A DNA stretch of 64,000 nucleotides from Bacteroidota bacterium (GTDB taxonomy: Bacteria > Bacteroidota > Bacteroidia > UKL13-3): NCBI GenBank assembly GCA_027484685.1, contig JAIXSO010000047.1:186001-250000 (forward strand). Direction: 5' to 3'. The translations under genes and the position numbers were made by a program. Of this stretch, positions 20,051 to 46,851 are shown piece after piece (position 1 is the first letter of the stretch; every line of letters begins with the position of its first letter). Under the pieces are notes generated by a model. It made no database searches and was not told the DNA's origin. It saw nothing but the letters and a program-made list of their open reading frames with translations.

Positions 20051-20074
20051 TTAACCCCCTTAAATAATAATAAA

Positions 20075-20099
20075 AAGCTGCTCTTTGGCAGCTTTTTTT
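20075..20099 (+). terminator. Rho-independent terminator
   Basis: A 7-bp stem (AAGCTGC / GCAGCTT), 6-base loop and T run after the AIM24-family gene. It may also serve the convergent DUF2490 gene. Confidence 0.8.
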
Positions 20100-20103
20100 A
20101 TGC

Positions 20104-20910
20104 TTAAAAATTATAAACCAATTCGTTGGTAAATGTGTACCAAAGCTTTGAAACGGGCACAATGGGTTCATAATCGTACATGGTTCGTAAGTTTAAGTTA
20201 TACCTTAAGTTTTTGGTGATTTTATACCCAAATCTTCCATGAAAACCTATTCTAGGTAGCGATTCAGCAAAACTGGTTCTTAAAAAATAATACAATCCGC
20301 TATTGATAACTATTTGGTCATTGATAAATTGCTCATAACTAAAATACCAGTTAAATCGTGGATTAAACGTTTCTCTTGGATTGGTGTTGCTGGGTAAATT
20401 TTCGGTTCTTACACCTTCAAAATTCCATTTTTCATATTCAAACATAAAGCCTGCCGCGGTGGCTAAAGTTAGTTTTTCATCTCTGTAAATTCGTTTTCGT
20501 AAATTGGCCGTAATGGCAAATTTTTGTTCTAATCCTCTTGATTCAAGCCATTGGTATTGGGCGTAATACTCCGGATATAAACTGCGCGAAATATCTTGCC
20601 TAAACCTTGCAAATAAATAGCCACCACTTAAAATAGTTTGATTGCCATTGGTTATAATTTGCAAATTATTTGCTACTGTTAAAACATGATGACCTTTTAA
20701 ACGCATGGCAAGTTCAGCCCTGGCTGCAAGTTGGTTAACTGTTTCTTTTTGTGTTTGAGAACTAAAACTGCCCGAAATAGTTCCGGCATAATGTTTTTGA
20801 GTATCTATGGGTATTAAAACAAAACTTTCGGTAAATAAAAATTGTGCATTTATTTTTATAAAACTAAATACCACTAAACTAATGGTAAAAATTGACTTTT
20901 TAATTTTCAT
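20104..20910 (-). CDS. DUF2490-like outer-membrane beta-barrel protein
   Basis: Started at ATG 20910 (MKIKKSIFTISLVVFSFIKINAQF), which gives a normal signal peptide; the frame is open four codons further upstream. The mature protein has alternating hydrophobic/aromatic strands (YLFARFRQDISRSLYPEYYAQYQWLESRGLEQKFAITANLRKRIY) and ends in an aromatic residue (TNELVYNF), as outer-membrane barrels do. The pattern and the about 250-residue size match the DUF2490 group common in this phylum. Function unknown. Confidence 0.8.
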   Translation of the reverse strand: MKIKKSIFTISLVVFSFIKINAQFLFTESFVLIPIDTQKHYAGTISGSFSSQTQKETVNQLAARAELAMRLKGHHVLTVANNLQIITNGNQTILSGGYLFARFRQDISRSLYPEYYAQYQWLESRGLEQKFAITANLRKRIYRDEKLTLATAAGFMFEYEKWNFEGVRTENLPSNTNPRETFNPRFNWYFSYEQFINDQIVINSGLYYFLRTSFAESLPRIGFHGRFGYKITKNLRYNLNLRTMYDYEPIVPVSKLWYTFTNELVYNF

Positions 20911-33731: not shown

Positions 33732-34805
33732 ATGAGTCATATAAAATTACTGCCCCCTAGACAAGATATTGAAACCAAAACGATACTTAAAAAGGTAGCA
33801 GAAGCACACCGATATTTAGCCGAACTAAAAGGTGTTGCTTTAAGTATTCCTAATGAAAGCATCTTAATAGATACACTTGTTTTACAGGAAGCTAAAGAAA
33901 GTTCGGCAATTGAGAATATAGTTTCAACATTTGACGAAATATACCAAAGCGATTGGTCAACAGGACATTTTAGTTCGAATGCTGCAAAAGAAGTTCATAG
34001 TTACGCCCGAGCACTAAAACATGGATTCAGCTTGGTAAAAAATGTTGGGTTATTGACCAACAATCATATTTTGGAAATACACGAGATTATTGAACAAAAT
34101 AAAGCAGGCTATAGAAAATTACCTGGAACCAAATTGCTAAATGAGAACACAAAAGAGATTATTTACACTCCTCCCCAAGATTATAATGATATCGTGAACT
34201 TAATGGAAAACTTGCAAGAGTTTATCAATAATGATCAATTATCAGACCTTGATTCGTTAATAAAAATGGTAATTATTCATCATCAATTTGAAAGTATTCA
34301 TCCATTTTATGATGGCAATGGGAGAACAGGCAGAATCATTAATATTCTATATTTGATTAAACAAGATTTATTACAACTTCCAATTCTTTATTTGAGCCGT
34401 TATATTATTCGTAATAAAGGAGATTATTATCGTTTACTACAGGAAGTAAGAGATACTGAAAATTGGGAAAATTGGATCATGTATATGTTAGAAGGAGTTG
34501 TGCAAACTGCAAAAGAAAACATCAAAATAATTATTGGAATAAGAAATGCCATGCAAGAATATAAACAAAGTATTCGTGCTTCACTACCAAAAATTTATAG
34601 CCAAGATTTACTAAATAATATTTTCCGACACCCATACACTAAGATTGAATATATAATGAATGACTTACAACTTAGCAGAGGAACGGCCGTTAGGTATTTG
34701 AGTGAATTAACCTCTTTAAACTTATTAGAAAAACAAAAAACAGGTCGTGATAATTTTTATATCAATAAAGCATTATTTGATTTGCTTGTAAACCAAAAGA
34801 AATAA
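33732..34805 (+). CDS. Class II Fic-domain protein (probable AMP-transferase) with winged-helix C-terminus
   Basis: A 357-residue Fic protein. The N-terminal part carries the inhibitory helix motif S-x-x-x-E-N in ESSAIENI, about residue 57, whose Glu blocks productive ATP binding in class II Fic enzymes. The catalytic core motif is the canonical HPFYDGNGRTGR, with catalytic His and the ATP-anchoring Arg residues all present. The C-terminal 80 residues contain a winged-helix-like segment (YTKIEYIMNDLQLSRGTAVRYLSELTSLNLLEKQ), so target choice or DNA binding may be involved. The flap strand GTKLLNENTKEIIYTPP is visible. Class II Fic proteins AMPylate protein targets. The primase-helicase starts 39 bases downstream, and both lie between repeats A and B. 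Confidence 0.95.
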   Translation: MSHIKLLPPRQDIETKTILKKVAEAHRYLAELKGVALSIPNESILIDTLVLQEAKESSAIENIVSTFDEIYQSDWSTGHFSSNAAKEVHSYARALKHGFSLVKNVGLLTNNHILEIHEIIEQNKAGYRKLPGTKLLNENTKEIIYTPPQDYNDIVNLMENLQEFINNDQLSDLDSLIKMVIIHHQFESIHPFYDGNGRTGRIINILYLIKQDLLQLPILYLSRYIIRNKGDYYRLLQEVRDTENWENWIMYMLEGVVQTAKENIKIIIGIRNAMQEYKQSIRASLPKIYSQDLLNNIFRHPYTKIEYIMNDLQLSRGTAVRYLSELTSLNLLEKQKTGRDNFYINKALFDLLVNQKK

Positions 34806-34844
34806 TCAATTAGTAATCATAAATAATTTAAGTGTAAATCCATT

Positions 34845-37826
34845 TTGATAATCATTTCCGAGCATATTCAACTTTTCAAATCTGTATTTAAAGGCAGAGA
34901 AGATGTGTTTGCAATACGTTGGGAGAAGGGTTCAAAAAGTGGATATATGCCTGCATATTTTTATGACCCATATATGTATAGGTCACATAAAATGAAGGGT
35001 GGTACTTTTCAAAATTTCACAAATAAAACTTATTTAAAACTAACCGACAAAGAAATCACTAAACATTTAAATGGTGAACAATTAATAGGAGTATATCCAA
35101 TGTTACAAGATAATACTTCAACATTTATCGTGGCTGATTTTGACGAATCAAATTGGATTGATGATGCTGTAAAATTTTTAAAAGCATGTAACAATAAAAA
35201 TATTCCTGCATACTTAGAACGTTCACGTTCAGGAAACGGAGGACATGTTTGGATATTCTTTGAGCAGCCTTACCCCGCTCTTCGAAGCCGAAAGATTTTT
35301 ATATCATTACTAGAACAATCAGGTGCATTTTCAGTATTCGATAAGGGTTCAAGTTTTGACCGCTTGTTTCCAAACCAAGATTTTCTTTCAGGCGAAGGAT
35401 TAGGTAATTTAATTGCCTTACCTCTTTTTAAAAATATTTTAGAGCAGGAAAATAGTTGCTTTATTGATGTTGATTCGTTACAACCAATAAAAGAACAGTT
35501 TGAGTTTTTAAAAAGCATAAATAGGATTTCTGTTTCTGAATTAGATAATTTATATGTAACACTGACAACAACTTCCAATTCAAATACCCCAAAACCTACC
35601 AAAGGAAAGTTAATGATTTCATTGAGCAATGAAGTGAAGATTAGCAGAGAAGGAATGACAGCTCCTTTAATTGACTTTTTGAAAGAAGAGATGAACTTCG
35701 CCAATTCAGAATTTTTCATTAAAAAGAAAATAGGCAAAAATACTTTTGGAACAGAACGTTTTTTTTTTTTTTTTTTTGAAACGGAAAACGATATTATTAT
35801 TCCAAGAGGTTTTATTGGAAGGACCATTCGTTTTTGTAGGGAAAACAAAATAGAACATGAATTCGTTGATGGACGAAAGAAACAAAAAACAACCCCATTT
35901 CCATTTAATGCTAAACTTAGAGAACATCAGCGAACAGTTGTAGAATCAATTGCTAAGAAGGATTTAGGAGTAATTGTAGCTCCACCTGGTTCAGGTAAAA
36001 CTATTGTAGCACTAAAAATTATTTCAGATAAACAGCAACCTGCTTTAATAATTGTACATAGGAAACAATTGGTTGAACAATGGGCTGATAGAATTAAAAC
36101 TTTTTTAGGAATTCCCAAAAATGAAATTGGAAAAATTGGGCAAGGGAAAACCAAGATAGGAAAGAAAATCACAATTGCAACTATACAAAGTTTATCAAAG
36201 GGACTCGATAAATGTGAAAATGATAATTTGAAAACTGCTTTTGGAACAATTATCGTTGATGAATGTCATCATATCCCTGCTGAAACATTCAGAAATACAA
36301 TTGCAAAGCTTCAAACATTTTATCTATATGGTTTAACAGCCACTCCGTTCAGAAAATATAATGATGGTAAACTAATTTTTATTCATTTAGGAGAAGTAAT
36401 ATCTGAAATAAAGTCAAGTGAGATTAGTAAAGCACCAAAAACAAAAATTATTGTCAGAAATACTGAACTTAATGTTCCTTTCAATTCTAAAACAGACCAA
36501 TTTGAAATACTTTCAAAAATTCTTATCCACGATTCAACAAGAAATAAATTAATTCTTGTTGATATAATAAACGAATTGAAAGTAGGCAAAAGAGTTGTAA
36601 TTATAACTGAAAGAAAAGAACATATTGATTCTCTAAACCAGTATTTAAAACAATCTTACGAAACCATAACGTTAAGTGGTGATGATTCTGAAAGCAACAG
36701 AACTAATAAATGGAAAATTCTGAAAGCTGGTAATTACCAAATTCTGATTACTACAGGGCAATTCTTTGGCGAAGGTACTGATTTGCAAAATGTAAATTGT
36801 TTATTCCTTGTTTATCCTTTTTCATTTGAGGGGAAGTTAATACAATACATTGGTAGGGTTCAGCGTTCAGAATTAACACCAACTATTTATGATTACCATG
36901 ATATAAAAATTGACTATCTAAATAAATTATTTTTGAAACGAAATACTTTTTACAGAAAAATAGTTAAGCAAGCCACATTATTTGATGAGCCAACTGAAGA
37001 AATTGCACCTACAAAAACAATTATTATTGAACAGCAAATAAAAATACCAATTGAACAACTTGAGTTCCGTTACGGTAGTATTCTATTTAAACACTCGATT
37101 TCTGAATTGAAAACCGAACTTGAGTTTGAAATTGAGAATCTTGAAGTACGACCTGAGTTTGAAGTTTTGAAACCATACTTTGCAAAAGCACTTAAATCAA
37201 AAAATGTAACAATTACTATTCATGCTGAGTTCGAAAATGAAAAACTTATTTCACAATTGGCAACTTCAAGTGATATTGATAAAATAAATCGTGAAGTAAT
37301 TGAAGGTGTAAAATTTACTTTCATTTCCAAGAATATAATTCGAAGACCTTTACATAAAAATGAAAATATTTTAGACCTCAATCAAATTCAAGGAGAAAAA
37401 AACAGTTCACTTTACAGCTCTAGTGAAGAGTTAATAGATGACATTTTGAAGAATACTAACTTCAAACATCACAAACATTTACAATACTTATCAAAACAAC
37501 ACGATAGAAGTATTTTAAAAATTCGTTTTATATTAAGTCCTTTCTCTTTTGTTTTTCTATTATCAGGCAAAGAAGAATTTCACATAGTATTAGAAACTTT
37601 AGACACGGAAGAAGCAACTTACTTGTGGCATTTCACTAAAGACAAGACTATACTTAAAATAAAACTGAAAGAAATTGATGAACAACTTAACATCATTAGA
37701 AACAAAGGCAAGCAAGTTTTCCTTGAAAAGCAACCAACAAATTTTAGTCGTATTTTACATGACTATTCAGATAGCAAAAAAGGATTTATTATTTGGAAGG
37801 GTTTACTTGACCAACAAATAATATAG
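34845..37826 (+). CDS. AEP primase-like domain plus SF2 helicase (TOTE conflict-system type)
   Basis: A 993-residue protein starting with TTG at 34845; no nearby in-frame ATG exists. Residues about 10-210 are an archaeo-eukaryotic-primase-like domain of the kind described in TOTE conflict systems: GVYPMLQDNTSTFIVADFDE with the DxD metal pair near 97, RSGNGGHVWIFF with the catalytic-type His, and FDRLFPNQDFLSGEGLGNLIALP. Residues about 350-710 are a superfamily 2 helicase: APPGSGKT (about 380), DECHH (about 471), TATPF (about 500) and YIGRVQRSE (about 669). The last 270 residues are unrecognised, with no nuclease motif I can see. Six Phe at 306-311 come from a T19 tract. It is probably part of anti-phage or anti-element defence. 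Confidence 0.9.
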   Translation: MIIISEHIQLFKSVFKGREDVFAIRWEKGSKSGYMPAYFYDPYMYRSHKMKGGTFQNFTNKTYLKLTDKEITKHLNGEQLIGVYPMLQDNTSTFIVADFDESNWIDDAVKFLKACNNKNIPAYLERSRSGNGGHVWIFFEQPYPALRSRKIFISLLEQSGAFSVFDKGSSFDRLFPNQDFLSGEGLGNLIALPLFKNILEQENSCFIDVDSLQPIKEQFEFLKSINRISVSELDNLYVTLTTTSNSNTPKPTKGKLMISLSNEVKISREGMTAPLIDFLKEEMNFANSEFFIKKKIGKNTFGTERFFFFFFETENDIIIPRGFIGRTIRFCRENKIEHEFVDGRKKQKTTPFPFNAKLREHQRTVVESIAKKDLGVIVAPPGSGKTIVALKIISDKQQPALIIVHRKQLVEQWADRIKTFLGIPKNEIGKIGQGKTKIGKKITIATIQSLSKGLDKCENDNLKTAFGTIIVDECHHIPAETFRNTIAKLQTFYLYGLTATPFRKYNDGKLIFIHLGEVISEIKSSEISKAPKTKIIVRNTELNVPFNSKTDQFEILSKILIHDSTRNKLILVDIINELKVGKRVVIITERKEHIDSLNQYLKQSYETITLSGDDSESNRTNKWKILKAGNYQILITTGQFFGEGTDLQNVNCLFLVYPFSFEGKLIQYIGRVQRSELTPTIYDYHDIKIDYLNKLFLKRNTFYRKIVKQATLFDEPTEEIAPTKTIIIEQQIKIPIEQLEFRYGSILFKHSISELKTELEFEIENLEVRPEFEVLKPYFAKALKSKNVTITIHAEFENEKLISQLATSSDIDKINREVIEGVKFTFISKNIIRRPLHKNENILDLNQIQGEKNSSLYSSSEELIDDILKNTNFKHHKHLQYLSKQHDRSILKIRFILSPFSFVFLLSGKEEFHIVLETLDTEEATYLWHFTKDKTILKIKLKEIDEQLNIIRNKGKQVFLEKQPTNFSRILHDYSDSKKGFIIWKGLLDQQII
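35759..35777 (+). repeat. T19 homopolymer within the primase-helicase gene
   Basis: Nineteen consecutive T lie between the primase and helicase parts and encode six Phe. The frame is intact at this length. A gain or loss of one base would leave only the primase part. Confidence 0.92.
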
Positions 37827-38367: not shown

Positions 38368-39306
38368 TTATATTAATAAAATAAGATCCATTGATTCTTC
38401 TTCAATCCACTCCCCGTTTGAAATGAGTGTTTTAATTAGAGCGGTTTGCCTTTCTGTAAAATTATTTTTTTCCAAGCCTGAAAAATCTTCTGATTTCCAT
38501 TTACTTTTATGATGCTTAACACCTACAGGAAGTCTTTTAGCATTTTCTGGTGGTTCTATTAATTCTATTTTTTTGTTTTTGGCATTAAAAATCTGTTTGA
38601 CATCAGAATAAATATTAAGTCCAGCATAATCCCAGTCACATAGGTAATAGATTGGTAACTGCAATTTATCCTGCTGTATATCATGTAATGGCTTTGTATT
38701 ATTACCTCCTACATACCATAACTCGATATTGTGTTTCTTATACTCTAAAGGTACTTTAAGGCAATCGAGATTTTCACATAATACTATAACCCTTGGGTTA
38801 GGACAATCTACAACAAACCTCCATTGTTGGTTTTTGGGGTCCTTTTCTGGAAATTCATCAACTTCTAACAAGTGTAAAATAGCATTTTTTAAACTTGGTT
38901 TATTCTCCAAATATTTAGAATTTTCATATTTAAAAACTTGAGCGGAGAATTTTTTTTGAGTTGTAAGATTATTTCTAAGCTCTTCTCTATTATGATAAAT
39001 GAAAACCAATGCTTTTAGATCTTCTTCTGTGAAAGTTTTCTTTGCGTTGTTCTCTATACCAGAGTTTGCAAAAAAATCATCATAGTATTTATAGGTTTTT
39101 AAATAATTATACTCATAAAAATCCGCAAATCTTTTCTTATTAGTAACAATAACAACAGAGTGATTCCCATCTTGGAACTTAATGAGTTTTTTTTGCTTGG
39201 ACAGAACTAAATTAATATACTCATTATTGAGCATTTTTAATTTAGTCTTTCCATTTTCATAGAGCTGATGAAGACCTTTTAAATGCTTCCATTCAATGTT
39301 TTTCAT
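38368..39306 (-). CDS. jetD: Wadjet nuclease subunit JetD (Toprim/DUF2220-type)
   Basis: A 312-residue protein, last gene of the operon. The C-terminal half carries a topoisomerase VI A/Toprim-like metal site: VIVLCENLDCLKVP (Glu) followed by PIYYLCDWDYAGLNIYSDV with the DxD pair, and WIEEESMD near the end. The N-terminal part (WKHLKGLHQLYENGKTK) is helical and fits the DUF3322-like domain of JetD. In known Wadjet systems JetD is the endonuclease that cuts circular plasmid DNA after SMC loop extrusion stalls. The metal residues look complete. It starts 3 bases after the jetC stop codon. Confidence 0.88.
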   Translation of the reverse strand: MKNIEWKHLKGLHQLYENGKTKLKMLNNEYINLVLSKQKKLIKFQDGNHSVVIVTNKKRFADFYEYNYLKTYKYYDDFFANSGIENNAKKTFTEEDLKALVFIYHNREELRNNLTTQKKFSAQVFKYENSKYLENKPSLKNAILHLLEVDEFPEKDPKNQQWRFVVDCPNPRVIVLCENLDCLKVPLEYKKHNIELWYVGGNNTKPLHDIQQDKLQLPIYYLCDWDYAGLNIYSDVKQIFNAKNKKIELIEPPENAKRLPVGVKHHKSKWKSEDFSGLEKNNFTERQTALIKTLISNGEWIEEESMDLILLI

Positions 39307-39309
39307 AAT

Positions 39310-42300
39310 TTATAAATTATTGGATGCTTTTCCAAAAATAGGTATTGGATCATAATTAACTTTTTCATCTTCTCGACTATTGTGAAGCAAGTAAATATTT
39401 TGTTTTTCTACATCAATCTTATTGGGATTAATGGAAAGAGATAACAATTGATAATCATTTGCACGAGCAATTCCGTAAAGCATATCAAAATTACTTCCTA
39501 AACCTTCTGCTTCATCTATAGCCATAAACCGAATAGCTTTAACAAATTTATTTTTTGATTGTTTATTTAATAAAGATAATTTCGCGATACATAGTAAAGC
39601 AATCGCAGCATAAGCCTGACTCGTACTTCCATCATTCTTTTTTCCTTGACTTGTTTTAATTGAAAACTTTACACTATAATAGGATTTTGGATTTAAGAGT
39701 TCTTCAATTTTTGGTTTTAAATTTTTCGAACCACCTGATCTATAAAATGCTTCTAACAACTTTTCTTTTAAAGATGGAAATTTTTCCAAATCATTTGAAA
39801 TTCCTTTTTCTGATTCAAATAATGAATCATCCAAACCTAATTCAAAATCTTTAGTCATATTATCGGTAAAAGTGTTCATCCATCCAGAAGAAAAAGAACC
39901 TTCACTGAAATCCTCTACACTCACTATATGACCTCCCGTTATTTCTTTGTCTCCAGAATTAAGAAAATTATTGATTAATCTAATATCATTTCTTTGGTCA
40001 CTTACTTCATCAGCTACTTCTTCTACAATAACAGCAAGTTTTTGAAGTTTTCGACTATTTAATCTACGGTTTTTGAAGTTAATATCTTTAAGATATTTAC
40101 CTATTTTTTCAATAATTTCTTTTTCCAATATATTAACATCATTAAGAATTTCAGGTGGCAAAATCTCTTCACACAATTGCTGAAAATCTCCAGTATTTTC
40201 AAATCGACTTACATTATTTTTTAAATACTGTCTAACAATAAGATTGTATTCTAAATTATAGGCATTATTGGATGAATCATAACTACTTTTAAGCTCTTCT
40301 ATTATTTGCTGAGTTAACTCTTCTGAAGAATCTGGAATATCCTTTAAAACATCAATATTTTGTGAATATACCCGGTTCTTAATTGAAGTCAGTTCTTCAA
40401 TTCTTTTCTCTAATTTAATAATATCTTCCACTTTTTCATAGTTTAATTTTTCATGAAGATAAATCTTGTTGAACTCCTTGTAGTAATCTTCAGCATTTAA
40501 CATAGCAGAATAAAAATGTTTTTTGTCAAAATTCTCTTTTAAGACAAAAGCATTATTGTTTTTAATATTTTCTATCTCTTGATTAGTCTCTGGTGTTAGG
40601 AAATTTTCATAGTCTCTTTTTAAATTATCTTCGAGGGTTATTAATTGGCTTCTATTGGTATTTAGTTGAGAATATACCTCCTTACTCTGTTTATGAGTTT
40701 CTTCAATGGAGTTCTGAGTATAAAGATTAGAATATTCTATGAAATCTTCGGTATTTAAATCGTACATTTCATGCGTCTCGAGTTGGTCTTCCAAATCTGT
40801 TTGAGTATTCCACGCTTTTAGATATCCATCGGGGTTTTCTAAACTTTCTAAAACATTTTTTAAAATTGTTTTTTCTTTTATAACTTTTTCTAAGCTAGTA
40901 ATATCAATTAGAATATTTGTAGTTTCTTTTTCAAAATATTCCCTTATTTTACTTTTATCTTGGGTATTGAAAATTGGAGAAAAATCCGTTGAAAAAAATT
41001 CAATAACACCGTTGAGATTAAGCCAAAACGCCTTATCTTCACTTTCATATACAACAATATTGTTCAGTAACACTTCTGGAGTAGGGACATATCTTTTGGA
41101 AGAATCAACCGGAGTTTCTATTTTAACACCTTCATTCTGATATTTGCGAATAATTGCTTCCTGATTCAAGTTTAATTTACTTGGTAAATTTAAAGCCCAG
41201 TGAGCCAAAGAATTTTTATCATCAATGTTATTTAAATCTTTGAGTTTATTTTTAAGTTCTAAATCTTTTACTAACTTCTCAAGTTGTTTCTCAATTTGAT
41301 TTACTATATTTTTTTCCTTATACTCTTTGCTTTTGAATACAGTAAGTATATTTTTAGATTTTAAAAGTTCTTCTAATTCTCTTATCTTGTTTATTGTATC
41401 TTTGGATTGATGGTATTTTTTGAACTTTTCTATAATTTCTTCTTGTGAACAATTAAACGCCTCCATCCAGGAAAAGAATTTTTTCCTTTTAGAAACCTTA
41501 GTATCCAATTCGTTTTTGACTTTAATAGCTTCATCCCATTTCGGCTCTATTTTTTCTAACTCTTGTGTTATCCAAGTGATTTTTTCGTAAACATTTTCTT
41601 TCAACAAAGGAAATGATTGTAAACTATAATAATAATCATTTAACAAAGTTTGAAGTTTATTCGAGTTTATGGAAATTTGATTTAAATAGTATTTGTAGGA
41701 AGATTTTAAATATAATATTTGAGCATCTTCTTTTGTGGTTTTTAAATCCAGTAAATTACTAAGTTGAGTCTGTTTGATGGTTAACGACTCTATTTCTTCC
41801 AAATTATTTTCAAATTGTCTTGTGTCTTCTTGTAATTCTTCTACGGTATCATAAAACTTTTTAATTAATTCTTGTTCTTTATCGTCACCAAATAAGAAAG
41901 ATTGTAAACTATGACTTTTACTTACATCTAAAGATTCTCTGGAAAAGGCCTGTATGATTTTAGCATAATTATCTAAAGTTTTACCATTGAGTGAAAGGTC
42001 TATCGGTAAAATATTATTTTTGAATAGTATCTTATGATAATTAGCAGTTTTTTCCCAAGATTCACAAGTAAGGTTTAGGTTATTTTGTATGTGTTCTTTT
42101 AATTCATTAATTGGAAAAATGATGTTGTTCTTTTGAAAATCTTCAACACCCAACAATTTTGAAAATGGAATCAACTGAGTATCCGTATCAAAATCATTTC
42201 CATCTTGAATAATAAACATATTAGAAGTGCCCGAACTCTCTAAATAAATACCTATAACCAAATATTGATTTTCATCCTTTTCAATATTGATAAATGCATA

Positions 42301-42552
42301 TCCCATATCTGTTCCTTTACCCTCGGTTCGCAGTACCATAGTATGAGGTTTTCTTGGTCCAGTACCTTTTGTTGGAGAATGGAATGCTTTTGCTCCCACA
42401 CAAACCAATTGCAGAAGGTCGGAAATCATACTTTTTCCAGCTCCTCCTTCTCCAACAAAATCTGTTCTGAAAGAACTGAATTCATAATCAAAATTTTGAT
42501 GATGAACAATTCCTAAAGTAGATAACCTTTTTATTCTTGGATAGTCTTTCAT
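39310..42552 (-). CDS. jetC: Wadjet SMC-like ATPase JetC
   Basis: A 1080-residue SMC/MukB-like ATPase. Near the N-terminus the Walker A is FVGEGGAGKSMISDLLQL. A long coiled-coil region of about 800 residues follows, with a central hinge-like part. At the C-terminus come the TSQGKKNDGSTSQAYAAIALLCIAKLSLL signature region and Walker B RFMAIDEAEGLGSNFDML, where DE is the ATP-hydrolysing pair. This order and its neighbours match JetC, the loop-extruding motor of Wadjet. Its ATG overlaps the jetB stop by ATGA, indicating coupled translation. Confidence 0.9.
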   Translation of the reverse strand: MKDYPRIKRLSTLGIVHHQNFDYEFSSFRTDFVGEGGAGKSMISDLLQLVCVGAKAFHSPTKGTGPRKPHTMVLRTEGKGTDMGYAFINIEKDENQYLVIGIYLESSGTSNMFIIQDGNDFDTDTQLIPFSKLLGVEDFQKNNIIFPINELKEHIQNNLNLTCESWEKTANYHKILFKNNILPIDLSLNGKTLDNYAKIIQAFSRESLDVSKSHSLQSFLFGDDKEQELIKKFYDTVEELQEDTRQFENNLEEIESLTIKQTQLSNLLDLKTTKEDAQILYLKSSYKYYLNQISINSNKLQTLLNDYYYSLQSFPLLKENVYEKITWITQELEKIEPKWDEAIKVKNELDTKVSKRKKFFSWMEAFNCSQEEIIEKFKKYHQSKDTINKIRELEELLKSKNILTVFKSKEYKEKNIVNQIEKQLEKLVKDLELKNKLKDLNNIDDKNSLAHWALNLPSKLNLNQEAIIRKYQNEGVKIETPVDSSKRYVPTPEVLLNNIVVYESEDKAFWLNLNGVIEFFSTDFSPIFNTQDKSKIREYFEKETTNILIDITSLEKVIKEKTILKNVLESLENPDGYLKAWNTQTDLEDQLETHEMYDLNTEDFIEYSNLYTQNSIEETHKQSKEVYSQLNTNRSQLITLEDNLKRDYENFLTPETNQEIENIKNNNAFVLKENFDKKHFYSAMLNAEDYYKEFNKIYLHEKLNYEKVEDIIKLEKRIEELTSIKNRVYSQNIDVLKDIPDSSEELTQQIIEELKSSYDSSNNAYNLEYNLIVRQYLKNNVSRFENTGDFQQLCEEILPPEILNDVNILEKEIIEKIGKYLKDINFKNRRLNSRKLQKLAVIVEEVADEVSDQRNDIRLINNFLNSGDKEITGGHIVSVEDFSEGSFSSGWMNTFTDNMTKDFELGLDDSLFESEKGISNDLEKFPSLKEKLLEAFYRSGGSKNLKPKIEELLNPKSYYSVKFSIKTSQGKKNDGSTSQAYAAIALLCIAKLSLLNKQSKNKFVKAIRFMAIDEAEGLGSNFDMLYGIARANDYQLLSLSINPNKIDVEKQNIYLLHNSREDEKVNYDPIPIFGKASNNL

Positions 42553-43196
42553 TTTAATTCATTTAAGGTTTCTTCAATATTCAGGATATATTCTTCATAA
42601 ACCTTTATCAGCCTGTCAAAAGCAGGAAGTAAGCCAAATTCATCTTTGCTCAATTCAATCCAGCCAATTTTTCTAAACTCCTCCAATGCTGATTGGATTG
42701 TATTATCTATTGCGTTATCATTAAGATTTCCTGGAGTAATATTTCTTGATTTTGCAATTAGCCTATATATTCCTGGTTTATAGTCTTCATATTCAATTCT
42801 TATTTTTTCTTTTAGCTTTAGAACTGAATCTAAATCTATTTCCTTATCAATATAAATGATTTTATAGATTATAAAACCAATGATTACATATTCACTTTTT
42901 AATGTTTCCCTATGTCGCGGAGATATGTTTCCACGACTATTTCCATAAAAATCTAAAAAAAAATAATTATTTGGTTTTTCACCTCCTTCAGAAAGCTCTA
43001 CATCAAAAAAAATCTGATAATAAAGCTTTAGACTGTCAATGTTCTTATCGATAAAATTAAAATATCGAATTTGATTACCTTGTTTCTGAAAGTGCATTCC
43101 GTCTTTTAAAAGATAATCTATTTCTGCAAAAAATTCTTTTGCGTTTTCTGCATATAAAAAATCACTTACTGTAACTTTGTTATTAACATTTTCCAT
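42549..43196 (-). CDS. jetB: Wadjet subunit JetB (MukE-like, DUF4194-type)
   Basis: A 215-residue helical protein with SDFLYAENAKEFFAEIDYLLKDGMHFQ and a winged-helix-like C-terminal half (ALEEFRKIGWIELSKDEFGLLPAFDRLIKVYEEYI). It sits between jetA and jetC, the place of the MukE-like kite subunit JetB; family assignment rests mainly on position and size. It overlaps jetA by 31 bases and jetC by 4. It should bridge the JetA kleisin and the JetC heads. Confidence 0.82.
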   Translation of the reverse strand: MENVNNKVTVSDFLYAENAKEFFAEIDYLLKDGMHFQKQGNQIRYFNFIDKNIDSLKLYYQIFFDVELSEGGEKPNNYFFLDFYGNSRGNISPRHRETLKSEYVIIGFIIYKIIYIDKEIDLDSVLKLKEKIRIEYEDYKPGIYRLIAKSRNITPGNLNDNAIDNTIQSALEEFRKIGWIELSKDEFGLLPAFDRLIKVYEEYILNIEETLNELK

Positions 43197-44485
43197 AGTG
43201 CAACATTTTTAAATTCATCATTTGTCACAAATGATTTTTCAGTAATTAATCGTAATTTTTCAGGGTTACCGTATATATGTTTTATCAAGTTAAAAAGAAC
43301 CGTTACGGCTATCTGGCTATTGTTCTCCTCTTTTAAAATTCTAAAAAATACATCAGATAAATTAAGTTGGTCTCTCAATGCTATTTCGGATAAAATAAAA
43401 TTTTCCCATTTTCGAATCGTTTCAATTTCCTTAATTTTCGCAAGTACTTTTTCCTTGTTTTCACGAATAACTTTTTCGTTCTGTTTATACTGCTTTCGTT
43501 CTTTTGGTTTAGGTGGAAAAAGTTCCTTATCTCTACTAATTATGGTAAAATACGGTGTAGGTATATGTATGACAGGACATAAAATGTCCTGAGGGAAAAC
43601 AATATTCTTTTTATTGTTCAGTTCACTATTCTTAAGAAGAAATGCAATAAATTTTTCAATTTTGGAATTGAATGCAGGCTTGTTTAAAGTCGAAAAAAGT
43701 TGACGAATTTTAGGCTGAATCCGGTCTAATTTTCGATCAATTGAATTTAATCGATCATTGATATATTTAATAAAGGAATATACCTCAAAAATCAAGCTAT
43801 TAATCTCATTATCAAAATTGTCTTTCTGTTCCAATAAACCTCTCATCGTTTTGGTTTCAGAGTAGGCGGATCGTAATTCTTTAACGTGAGATTGAGATTT
43901 TGTTAATCGTTCTTCGGTTGCTACTAAAACATCAATAAAACTTTGGTTTAGCATATTTGTTTCTTTCTTTAAATCTTCAATTGATAGAGAAATTTGGCGA
44001 TCAAGAAAGTCTATTTGTTCTCTTAAGTCGGGTTCGTATTTTTCAAATTCATCTTCTAACCAAAATCTAAGATCATCAGAGTTTCTCAAACTGTTTGTCA
44101 GATGAATACATATTTTCTGAATTCGGGTTGGATTAAAGGCTCCCTGTAAAGTTTCTTTTGCATGTTTACAAAATTTATATGCATAATCTTTGAAATAGTA
44201 CTTTTGAGTTTGTTGGTCATAATCCAAGAAGTATTCTTGTAAGTTCATTATCTGTTCACTATAAACTTCTTTAGGATAACGCTCTTTGGTTATATAAATT
44301 TGCTCAAATGCTTCATGTAAATCTTTTTCCGTAAATTTACCATCTTCAAAGGTTTTATTTTCAATTTTCTCAAAAATTAGGACAATAGCCAATCCCACCT
44401 CTCTTTCTGGGAAAAGAAGTTTATAAGTTTTATCTTCGTTTAGTATCTTAACGAAGTCAAAGTTTATATTAGCACTTTCACTCAA
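43166..44485 (-). CDS. jetA: Wadjet kleisin-like subunit JetA (MukF-like)
   Basis: A 439-residue mostly helical protein, first gene of the operon. An N-terminal winged-helix-like part (LLFPEREVGLAIVLIFEKIENKTFEDGKFTEKDLHEAF) is followed by helical bundle and coiled-coil segments (LREQIDFLDRQISLSIEDLKKETNMLNQSFIDVLVATEERL), as in kleisins of the MukF type. The start is TTG at 44485 with a stop codon 9 bases upstream and no ATG nearby. I call it JetA from position and layout; the Wadjet subtype (I, II or III) cannot be fixed by eye. Upstream is the non-coding hairpin block. Confidence 0.82.
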   Translation of the reverse strand: MSESANINFDFVKILNEDKTYKLLFPEREVGLAIVLIFEKIENKTFEDGKFTEKDLHEAFEQIYITKERYPKEVYSEQIMNLQEYFLDYDQQTQKYYFKDYAYKFCKHAKETLQGAFNPTRIQKICIHLTNSLRNSDDLRFWLEDEFEKYEPDLREQIDFLDRQISLSIEDLKKETNMLNQSFIDVLVATEERLTKSQSHVKELRSAYSETKTMRGLLEQKDNFDNEINSLIFEVYSFIKYINDRLNSIDRKLDRIQPKIRQLFSTLNKPAFNSKIEKFIAFLLKNSELNNKKNIVFPQDILCPVIHIPTPYFTIISRDKELFPPKPKERKQYKQNEKVIRENKEKVLAKIKEIETIRKWENFILSEIALRDQLNLSDVFFRILKEENNSQIAVTVLFNLIKHIYGNPEKLRLITEKSFVTNDEFKNVALWKMLITKLQ

Positions 44486-44723
44486 ATTTGATTAGTATTA
44501 TTTTTTACATTTACATTTTAGGGACTATTAAGTTTTCTTAAAATCAAAACTTGAAGTAGATAAACACAGTCTCGAATATAATAATAAAATTTCTTAACTA
44601 ATAAAGATTATACACAAATATTCTTTGATATTAAAAGTTAGGAAACTTTTTAATTAATTGTACTTCCAATAAATAAATATAATTTGATATTATTATTTTA
44701 AAATCGGTAAAAAGGTGTTCACT

Positions 44724-45180
44724 GCATCAATACAATACAAAAAGATATGCCAAAGCTATATAACAGTTTTGTTTTGCATACTTTCAAAAACAGACAAAAC
44801 ACTTATATAGCCCTTTCAGGGTTTCACTTTGGCATACTTTTCATTGCATTGATTTCTTTCATCAGTAACCTCCTGCATACTGTATAGAAGCTTTACTCAT
44901 CTTTTGTAATTTGATTCCCTGCTTCGCCCGGGAACAAATTACTTTTAATTTCATTTCAGCATCTATACAGTCTGACGGTTACTATTTTAGGCTCGCCAGC
45001 TTGCAGTTCATGGCTTCGTTTTTGATATGATTTTTGATGATTTTCAAAAATCTCACCAAAACCTCGTGTTTTCAACATAGGTCATTCCCGTACTTCGTAC
45101 TCTTTATATTCCACCATGAACTGCACTCGCTGGTGGCTCGCAACACACCCAACGCAATTGCATTGCATTAGGTTTACCTA
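44724..45180. other. Non-coding block of three long imperfect hairpins plus a small one
   Basis: Hairpin 1 (44726-44853): ATCAATACAAT/ATTGCATTGAT, AAAAG-A-TATGCCAAAG with CTTTGGCATACTTTT (44827-44841), CTATATAA/TTATATAG (44756/44803), GTTTTGT/ACAAAAC. Hairpin 2 (44864-44983): AGTAACC/GGTTACT, ACTGTATAGA/TCTATACAGT (44879/44962), GTAATTTG/CAAATTAC. Hairpin 3 (45002-45125): perfect 12-bp TGCAGTTCATGG/CCATGAACTGCA enclosing an inner GATTTTTGA/TCAAAAATC hairpin. A small TAGG-TTTA-CCTA hairpin follows at 45169. No sizeable reading frame is present. It could be a structured RNA, a mobile-element remnant or a repeat. The rest of 44486-45339 (44486-44720 and 45190-45339) is plain AT-rich DNA. Confidence 0.75.
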
Positions 45181-45339
45181 GACACGCTCAAGGCTGTTTT
45201 ACCTATATTGAGTTAATTTTTACAAAATAAATCAACATCCATTTATTACGTATAAAGCTTTTTTAATAAATCAAATAGAAAAAAACCATATTCACTTTTA
45301 TGGAATTGTTTTTACAAATTGCATCAATAATAATATCAA

Positions 45340-46851
45340 CTAAAACTTAAACTTTTGTAGAAAGAATTTTGGTTTCCAATTAAATGATCCTTCAATATAA
45401 TTATATAAAATCAACTCATTATTTATAGCAAATGATTTCAATGGAACTAAATAACCAAACTTATTACCATTATCAATTACCGAAATATTTTTATTGCCTG
45501 TTTCATTTAATATTTGAAACTTCATTAAATTGATTTTTCCTTTAAAGGTAGAGTAAACATCAGTTGTATATCTTGGTGATTTTTTTATTAGTTGATGGTT
45601 TTTTTCGCTATCAAACATAATGAAATTGATGGAGTTATCGTCTTGATATAATGTAAAAGAAAAATAACCTTTGTTGTATAATTCAGCTGGTGTATAATCG
45701 TATTCAGATTCATCTAATCTTGGAATAATTTGAGACCAAAGCATTTCTCCATTTGGTTTAATACAAACTATTAAAATATCTAAATCTTTTGTAATATATG
45801 ATAATTTGTTATATGTATAGTTTCCATTTTGAACTGATGTGTTTTGTTTAATTACTTTTCTTTGTTGGGTAACTAAAACTATATTTCCAGCTTTGTTAAA
45901 AAAATATCTTTTTAATTCGTGAAAAGGAATGAAAGCACCGATTTTTTCGTTTTCTTTTGTTAGGTAATTATTAGTAAATTCCTTTGTAAATGCTGATTTA
46001 GCAATCTCTGATACGTTTCCCGTTTTAATATCAATAGTGTATAAAAATGTGCCTTTAAAACTATTGCCTTCATCTGAATAAAAACCAGAAAAATAAAACT
46101 TGTTATCTAAAGTGTTTTCAAGTGCATTTAAGGTTAAATAGTTAATTTGAGCTGTATCTATTTTATGATCGAATAATACATTATCTTGTGTGTTAAATAT
46201 TATAGTACGATAATCATTGATGGCTTTACCAATTAATAAATAATTTCCATTTTCAGTTACATATTCATATTTAACTTTAATCTCATTCCATTTATAATTC
46301 AACTGTTGCTTAGTAACTTTTTCTACCTCATATTTTTCGTTCACAATAGTTGATACTAGGTTAATGTTTTTATCGGCATCTAAGTAACCTTTATCTAAAA
46401 ATTCAAATTTTTGCATTTTATTTAGGTAGTATATTTCACAAGTATTTCCCATTGGGGCGCTAAACACATGTTTCCATTCATTTATGGTTAACAAATCTTC
46501 GTTTAAAACAGTAACTAAAAACTCACCATTTTTGGTTGTCATGTTATTAATAAGACCCCATAAGTAAATTTTATCACCAATAATAAATTCTTTTTGTCTG
46601 TAAAATTCAGTGTTAACAATAGGTTTTTGAACCTCCACTGTTTTTTCTAATTCCAATGCATAGTTAAACACAGATATAAAAGTTTTTATATTATCTGTTT
46701 CTAAAAAATAGAATTTACTACCAATTTTACCTAAAAAAATTTGGTATTTACTAACCAATTTTTGAGTAGTACCTTTGGTAATGTTGGGTTGAGCAATACT
46801 ACAATTTACAAAAAGTAAAGCAGTTACAATTATTAAAAATAGTCTTTTCAT
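45340..46851 (-). CDS. Secreted hypothetical protein, beta-propeller-like
   Basis: A 503-residue protein with a signal peptide (MKRLFLIIVTALLFVNCSIAQ). The mature part is a series of beta-strand-rich repeats: FYFLETDNIKTFISVFNYALELE, KIYLWGLINNMTTKNGEFLVTVLNEDLLTINEW, GNYLLIGKAINDYRTIIFNTQDN, KFYFSGFYSDEGNSFKGTFLYTIDIKTG. This looks like a propeller of readout-type blades, but I do not recognise a named family. There is no T9SS tail. It lies downstream of the RHS cluster on the same strand, separated by a structured intergenic region, so it may be independent. Confidence 0.75.
   Translation of the reverse strand: MKRLFLIIVTALLFVNCSIAQPNITKGTTQKLVSKYQIFLGKIGSKFYFLETDNIKTFISVFNYALELEKTVEVQKPIVNTEFYRQKEFIIGDKIYLWGLINNMTTKNGEFLVTVLNEDLLTINEWKHVFSAPMGNTCEIYYLNKMQKFEFLDKGYLDADKNINLVSTIVNEKYEVEKVTKQQLNYKWNEIKVKYEYVTENGNYLLIGKAINDYRTIIFNTQDNVLFDHKIDTAQINYLTLNALENTLDNKFYFSGFYSDEGNSFKGTFLYTIDIKTGNVSEIAKSAFTKEFTNNYLTKENEKIGAFIPFHELKRYFFNKAGNIVLVTQQRKVIKQNTSVQNGNYTYNKLSYITKDLDILIVCIKPNGEMLWSQIIPRLDESEYDYTPAELYNKGYFSFTLYQDDNSINFIMFDSEKNHQLIKKSPRYTTDVYSTFKGKINLMKFQILNETGNKNISVIDNGNKFGYLVPLKSFAINNELILYNYIEGSFNWKPKFFLQKFKF

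Follow-up and report, generated by a model that had tools for sequence, protein, structure and literature searches.

Structured nucleic acids that are both very large and well conserved are rare, and the function of several of them is a puzzle. HEARO (omega) RNA is a large structured RNA with sharp ends that is carried by mobile DNA, and the attC sites of integrons are marked by core boxes of the form GTTRRRY and RYYYAAC. ROOL and GOLLD are encoded by phages and prophages and are of unknown function, according to PMC12286853. In the rAID arrays of Bacteroidales, immunity genes are carried as cargo together with a tyrosine recombinase and with conserved sequence motifs between the genes, according to PMC12247911. 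Here we analyse a folded element in a window of 64,000 nucleotides (nt), the whole stretch of Bacteroidota DNA that was studied (contig JAIXSO010000047.1, positions 186,001 to 250,000). An initial annotation had noted three consecutive hairpins in non-coding DNA upstream of an operon labelled Wadjet. We found that these hairpins are sub-domains of a single element of ~0.5 kb on the minus strand (44706-45204), which belongs to a family of large folded elements, 0.47-0.84 kb in size, whose ends, fold and bases are conserved. On balance, we lean towards the view that this is an undescribed family of Bacteroidota elements, most likely acting as RNA and carried by cargo islands.

Like OLE, ROOL and GOLLD, the element spans several hundred nucleotides, has an elaborate covarying fold and is sporadically distributed; unlike them, it has no covariance-model match, has been found only in Bacteroidota so far, and lies in a defence-cargo context rather than in the transfer RNA islands of phages. 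A scan of viral contigs with the exact 5' motif gave no match. With integron attC sites and cassette arrays it shares a strand-specific fold bordering varying cargo, sometimes near tyrosine recombinases, but it is several times larger and multi-branched, shows no attC boxes by eye, and is accompanied by two recombinases and an ATPase-like protein instead of IntI. The descriptive likeness to rAID arrays lies in the tyrosine recombinase, the immunity cargo and the conserved intergenic sequence, whereas the element's neighbours include cyclic-oligonucleotide-based antiphage signalling system (CBASS), OLD, HipA-like and other genes. Unlike HEARO, the element is not matched by the HEARO model; neither IscB nor TnpB was found among the Pfam-scanned neighbours, in which no search was aimed at them, and the group II intron (domain V) covariance model had no match in the window element.

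Against Rfam 15, the window element gave no match at the gathering threshold and, at E <=10, chance-level matches far below it, and at E <=1 there was no match inside the element at 14 further loci. The matches above gathering were Flavo-1, outside the element, and STnc370, at threshold, elsewhere in the window. Literature searches on DUF6943, DUF6266 and DUF5675 yielded no publication on islands of the kind described below, DUF5675 being mentioned in two phage papers; those under 'Flavo-1 RNA' returned no paper, and those on large RNAs or integron-like systems no matching description. The motif table came from PMC2864571. Relative to Rfam and the literature searched, and leaving candidate-RNA sets outside Rfam aside, the family appears to be new.

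A single element with a covarying fold

The block at 44724-45180 (457 nt) contains nested inverted repeats at approximately the positions of the three hairpins in Table 1. Its minimum free energy (MFE) is -137.5 kcal/mol on the plus strand (z -9.6) and -157.9 kcal/mol on the minus strand (z -10.0), and on both strands 0/100 dinucleotide shuffles equalled the fold energy of the block. No open reading frame of at least 80 amino acids (aa) was found in 44486-45339, and in 200-base windows the guanine-cytosine content of the block is 0.33-0.42 versus 0.175-0.24 in the intergenic flanks. The initial annotation was therefore right in describing a hairpin block in non-coding DNA, richer in guanine and cytosine than its surroundings. 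All three of its hairpins are present as well; however, the unit had been drawn wrongly, as there is one element, with a fourth small hairpin at ~45147-45172 and with two ends that base-pair with each other (GGTAAA/TTTACC).

The evidence for this unit comes from 19 full-length copies, 468-840 nt long, which were collected from the window, relatives, Solitalea, Anaerophaga and further Bacteroidota and aligned by MAFFT, blind to structure, with 44708-45204 as the span of the window copy. With gaps counted, identity between the window copy and four others is 37-55%. The end pair is GGTAAA/TTTACC in 16/19 copies and GGGAAA or GGAAAA with TTTTCC in 3/19, and exactly one TTTACC-type end lies within 750 nt past the start in 7/7 copies. 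Among the conserved stretches are GGTAAAACAGCCTTGAGCGTG, GCGAGCC, GCGAGTG, ACACAAGGG, ATGACA, GCAGGCGAGC, GGAACACC and TTTACC.

A consensus structure of 112 pairs was obtained with RNAalifold from 18 copies, L132 being excluded for its poorly aligned middle. Counts were made on 15 non-redundant rows, from which L132 and the near duplicates L089, L093 and L027 were excluded. In these rows, 1439 of the 1630 ungapped pairing cells (88%) are paired (1352 Watson-Crick and 87 GU), the others being 19 AC and 172 further combinations; in a control in which the partner was slid by 1-3 columns, 36-43% were paired. As many as 65/112 pairs changed on both sides. The fold was then cross-validated with the same four copies left out, a structure from 7 copies being scored on the 8 others and the reverse, with 500 shuffles each, which guards against circularity. 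The held-out copies were paired at 84.7% (83.1% in reverse) versus shuffle maxima of 75.9% and 74.6%, and the held-out pairs changed on both sides numbered 49 and 63 versus maxima of 36 and 42. The compensatory change that the initial annotation had proposed to seek is present in the alignment of copies and survives cross-validation, as expected of a large structured RNA.

From BLAST pieces to one family

BLAST searches with the block found four other sites in the window's genome and six sites in 3/9 genus relatives, the match at each covering no more than the first hairpin or the tail on the right. Models of the covariance type were built for the two ends, R1 and R2, and searched over 10 genus genomes. 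Matches to both were co-located, in equal order, strand and spacing (~490 nt), at two G002 loci as well as in the window; the R1 matches at the G002 loci were weak (E 0.001 and 0.02). Alignment of these three loci gave a single unit running from AGGTAAAACAGCC to TTTACC. Since R1 and R2 share one unit with the same spacing at three loci, a first reading of the BLAST pieces as two separate repeat families was dropped.

An exact scan with a 21-base 5' motif, over a genome collection of 84,980 species by its own description, found 11 stretches, all in Bacteroidota records: Solitalea longa (3), Solitalea agri, Anaerophaga thermohalophila, metagenome-assembled genomes labelled Bacteroidetes (4), Emticicia and Chitinophaga. 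By model, matches were found in 6/64 genomes of the family (R2, E <=0.001), in 9/64 genomes of the order and in 12/395 genomes sampled from the class (both R3, E <=1e-4). It should be noted that these counts take in broken copies, as in G020, where a 5' fragment is all that is present, and that the strict filters missed some copies (among L151, L152 and L153), G234 (L153) thereby being scored as element-negative.

Solitalea longa carries two full-length copies and one truncated copy, G002 and G109 carry two full-length copies each, and two is the most observed per genome; the Solitalea copies are 91-96% identical and lie at unrelated loci. Fragments consisting of the 5' or the 3' part only also exist, several of them at cassette junctions. 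At L029:7710-9276 and L134:8853-9600, the 5' end of the element and a 3'-end-like sequence are split by genes, as though cargo lay inside the element. The window element matched neither plasmid nor phage records, and no match was found for the L088 and L129 copies in plasmids or for the L124 copy in phages. Two element motifs, including the exact 5' motif, had 0 matches in viral contigs; a third matched six viral contigs, none of which was matched by model R3, and these matches were judged to be due to chance.

Association with DUF6943 islands

At 8/19 full-length copies (L026, L027, L094/L123, L124, L125, L127, L128 and L132), and likewise at the partial or unverified copies L028, L079, L091 and L092, the element has opposite its 5' end a DUF6943 gene that is read away from it. 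This gene is usually accompanied by short membrane-protein genes and by a gene which we take to be DUF6266-like and which has no Pfam match. The slot between DUF6943 and the element varies: it is gene-free in L127, L079 and L027, in the last of which another structured stretch takes the place of genes, and it holds a 132-aa gene in L026, a uracil-DNA-glycosylase-like gene in L092, an MmeI-like gene in L128 and a CBASS operon in L132.

In the class sample, DUF6943 was present in 7/12 element-positive versus 19/383 element-negative genomes (one-sided Fisher p 1.5e-6, uncorrected for relatedness, with 4/7 double-positive genomes from one family and both searches assumed to cover the same 395 genomes). 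When 20 further loci, of the 32 DUF6943 matches, were fetched, the element was recognised in L151, L152 and L153 (R3 E 5e-5, 0.015 and 0.003, together with reading of the loci), and diverged forms were seen by eye in L142, L146 and L149. Fold z-scores close to DUF6943, from rough 2-mer shuffles, were no more than moderate: a scanning window under -4 was found within 3 kb upstream at 12/20 loci versus 5/19 in a zone 4.5-7.5 kb away, and the windows concerned numbered 17/192 near versus 6/181 far.

RNA or folded DNA

Of the three candidates in the initial annotation, a structured RNA is the best supported, through the cross-validated covariation of its fold, and it is as a predicted RNA that we treat it. 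A function as RNA is suggested by the excess of GU over AC among the paired-column cells, by the composition of unpaired columns (A 37%, G 29%, T 20%, C 14%), which are A-rich and C-poor as is typical of structured RNAs, by the preference for one strand and by the complexity of the fold. With RNA parameters, MFE is lower on the element strand in 19/19 copies, and z-scores, from 12 rough shuffles each, favour it in 11/12.

Several observations weigh against this reading. With DNA parameters the element strand likewise has the lower MFE, in 12/12 copies tested, and z-scores from equally few shuffles favour it in 9/12, so that folding does not tell RNA from single-stranded DNA; the strand evidence is also soft in that G-rich strands fold better anyway and in that the folding program pairs GU but never AC. 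The Bacteroidota -7 promoter element, TAnnTTTG, occurs within 20 nt of the 5' end in 0/21 copies and within 80 nt in 2/21, and neither a consistent terminator nor a shared 5' flank was seen by eye across copies. The multiple and broken copies would equally fit a mobile DNA unit. Finally, the genome of the window has no DUF6943 match, and we therefore regard this partner as frequent yet not obligatory.

An RNA gene with a promoter abutting its 5' end is unsupported by the promoter counts. Because no promoter consensus is found at the element, we propose that its minus strand would be transcribed by read-through or by transcription of the island. The transcript would fold into a compact multi-domain RNA, probably a ribonucleoprotein or an RNA multimer, and the element would travel with its islands, the DUF6943 protein being the first candidate partner. 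That the element helps cargo to establish or to move is a guess. The cross-validated fold, the defined ends, the cultured hosts (Solitalea, Anaerophaga) and the recurring neighbour DUF6943 make these ideas directly testable. Lying beside exchangeable defence modules, the element offers a handle on how Bacteroidota islands are assembled, and the 5'-end covariance model may help to locate new defence genes.

The main rival to an RNA is a recombination element that works as folded single-stranded DNA in an integron-like manner, tandem tyrosine recombinases recognising the folded strand and swapping cassettes of defence or toxin-immunity genes. It is kept on account of the recombinases, of a 5' end that lacks a promoter consensus, and of copies that are multiple and in part broken; we consider it unlikely, though a serious contender. 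Two tandem tyrosine recombinases lie 0.05 to ~1.1 kb from the full-length copies L129, L133 and L090 (3/19), convergent with the element; they are orthologous across these loci (recA 40-50% and recB 31-37% identity), and the module adds an ATPase-like protein of 540-570 aa, with a GxxGxGKT motif and no Pfam family, which is cut by the contig end in L090. Related but more distant recombinase pairs occur in L031, L036 and L077, within a few kb of element fragments, inside arrays of RHS cassettes in the genus of the window. The slot of varying cargo in fixed orientation, from the gene-free loci to the CBASS operon, and the fragments at cassette junctions would also suit such a site. However, no tandem pair was found in the stretches examined round the other 16/19 full-length copies (L123 has a single weak recombinase match ~6.5 kb off), and a multi-branched fold of 500 nt with many conserved bases exceeds the needs of a recombination site. 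An integron proper was rejected: an integron integrase (TIGR02249) was over the cut-off in 0/40 genomes, with sub-threshold matches in 40/40 and in 14/14 controls, the L031 pair scored below the curated cut-off for integron integrases, and attC core boxes (R'/R'') were not seen by eye at the element's ends.

We also speculate, with slightly less conviction than we give to that rival, that Bacteroidota possess an unrecognised system of cargo exchange, with the element, as RNA or as a folded strand, at its core. Such a system would consist of a DUF6943/DUF6266 island with a fixed slot, one side of which would be marked by the large structured nucleic acid, and of tandem tyrosine recombinases supplied from some copies; CBASS, Wadjet-like, OLD, RHS and toxin-antitoxin modules would be traded through it.

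A non-autonomous mobile element, also named in the initial annotation, agrees with what was found in so far as there are multiple discrete copies, some of them truncated, which frequently lie in islands of varying cargo. Its identification as a miniature inverted-repeat transposable element, the folding of which would result incidentally from its ends and internal repeats, ranks low and is in our judgement improbable. The multiple copies in Solitalea longa, G002 and G109, the near-identity of the Solitalea copies at unrelated loci and the terminal repeats CAGGTAAA/TTTACCTG in L026, L027 and L088 are what such an element would show, but no target-site duplication was seen by eye in the Solitalea copies, no genome was observed to hold more than two full-length copies, and a multi-branched fold with cross-validated compensatory change would be unexpected.

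That the element serves the Wadjet-like operon as a regulatory leader or as a topological (cruciform) site, as might be suggested by its position ~220 bp before the first gene and on the same strand, is largely refuted and very improbable, since homologues of the four genes of this structural maintenance of chromosomes (SMC) operon are absent from the 4.4-18 kb stretches round the other 18 full-length copies (tblastn, E <=1e-4), and JetC occurs in 9/97 genomes and in 0/9 genus relatives, though G002 and G003 among these clearly have the 5' domain. A constant link of the block with Wadjet, and a cruciform for an SMC system that senses DNA topology, are unsupported on the same evidence. Copies without Wadjet and covariation, which had been set against each other as tests, were both observed and hence are not exclusive alternatives.

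Cargo and neighbouring genes

The element and the other features with coordinates are listed in Table 1. Within the window, the intergenic stretch of the element (44486-45339) runs from the stop of a 503-aa gene to the start of the SMC operon. The label Wadjet is based on Pfam matches to two of the four genes, MukB, at 24 bits barely over the cut-off of 23, and MksE, and on the gene order; the outer two had no Pfam, NCBIfam or PADLOC match, and the three proteins compared had no credible match among solved structures. A relative of the 503-aa protein, 55% identical, adjoins a 3'-end element fragment in L036. On the 5' side of the window copy, an RHS_repeat match of 21.6 bits (cut-off 22) lies 14 kb away.

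Table 1. Positions of the folded element, its parts and associated features (window coordinates unless a locus is named)
Feature	Position	Strand	Description
Full-length folded element	44706..45204	-	5' end AGGTAAAACAGCC at 45204, 3' end TTTACC at 44706; from alignment with 18 other full-length copies and covariation
Closing stem, 5' strand (AGGTAAAA)	45197..45204	-	Partner is TTTACC at 44706-44711
Closing stem, 3' strand (TTTACC)	44706..44711	-	Pairing seen in alignment and fold
Conserved 5' domain	45130..45204	-	AGGTAAAACAGCCTTGAGCGTG, then a variable stem-loop, then GCGAGCC; models R2, R3
Third hairpin of the initial annotation	44990..45141	-	Domain flanked by motifs GCGAGCC and GGCGAGCC
Second hairpin of the initial annotation	44863..44984	-	Closing stem AGTAACC/GGTTACT in the window, GCAGC/GCTGC in most relatives; compensatory changes
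First hairpin of the initial annotation	44724..44853	-	3' domain: stem CTATATAA..TTATATAG, mini-hairpin CCCTGAAAGGG, plus TTTGGCAT; model R1
Four-gene SMC (Wadjet-like) operon	38368..44485	-	On the 3' side of the element, a neighbour and not part of it; MukB and MksE Pfam matches
503-aa gene	45340..46851	-	Stop ~135 bp before the 5' end of the element; neighbour
Recombinase module	L129:5973-9572, L133:10256-13775, L090:1-2783
Module A	L027:4773-5500, L026:6359-7083, L092:1392-2075, L028:905-1827

In a Pfam or PADLOC scan of at most a few genes per copy, defence or toxin-antitoxin-type genes were found near 10/19 copies, a count without a random-locus control. These are the SMC operon in the window, a ThiF-E2-JAB protein and an AAA/TPR protein (L088), YoeB (L090), an OLD nuclease with PDDEXK_7 (L094/L123), Fic (L096), a helix-turn-helix protein with an M78 peptidase (L124), a HipA-like protein (L127), MmeI-like and dynamin/LeoBC-like proteins (L128), a CBASS operon of cyclase, E1-E2, JAB and NucC (L132), and YhcG (L133). 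RHS-type toxin genes, most of them identified by eye through their RHS core, lie near L026, L126, L129 and L133. Arrays of an RHS-core toxin gene with a putative immunity gene were seen in L031, L035 and L077, where repeated hairpins and a terminator-like CCGCTTTAGCC..GGCTAAAGCGG stand between the cassettes.

The islands hold further recurring parts. Module A is a second, distinct conserved structured non-coding stretch just upstream of DUF6943 genes, which ends near AAATTTACCTTCCAAAAGCACATGGG. Two clusters of DUF6266-like, membrane-protein and DUF6943 genes occur in inverted arrangement at L127:3273-7824. Short proteins with a TKADAG motif are encoded at L123:10709-11047 (without a Pfam family), L129:10066-10305, L131:9227-9472 and L079 (~2573). 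Flavo-1 (RF01705) is, like the predicted product of the element, a Bacteroidota RNA, but it is a separate family of 76 nt which the element does not match. It begins ~130 bp past the element at L026:8386-8457, and at L144:7761-7833 it comes after a folded stretch that looks similar by eye and has no R3 match; this placement may bear on what Flavo-1 is.

Elsewhere in the window, the STnc370 match (20066-20134), to an enterobacterial small RNA, scores exactly at gathering and is probably a chance hairpin. A further possible conflict locus lies close to the SMC operon, where the gene for a Fic protein precedes that for a TOTE-type primase-helicase (33732-37826).
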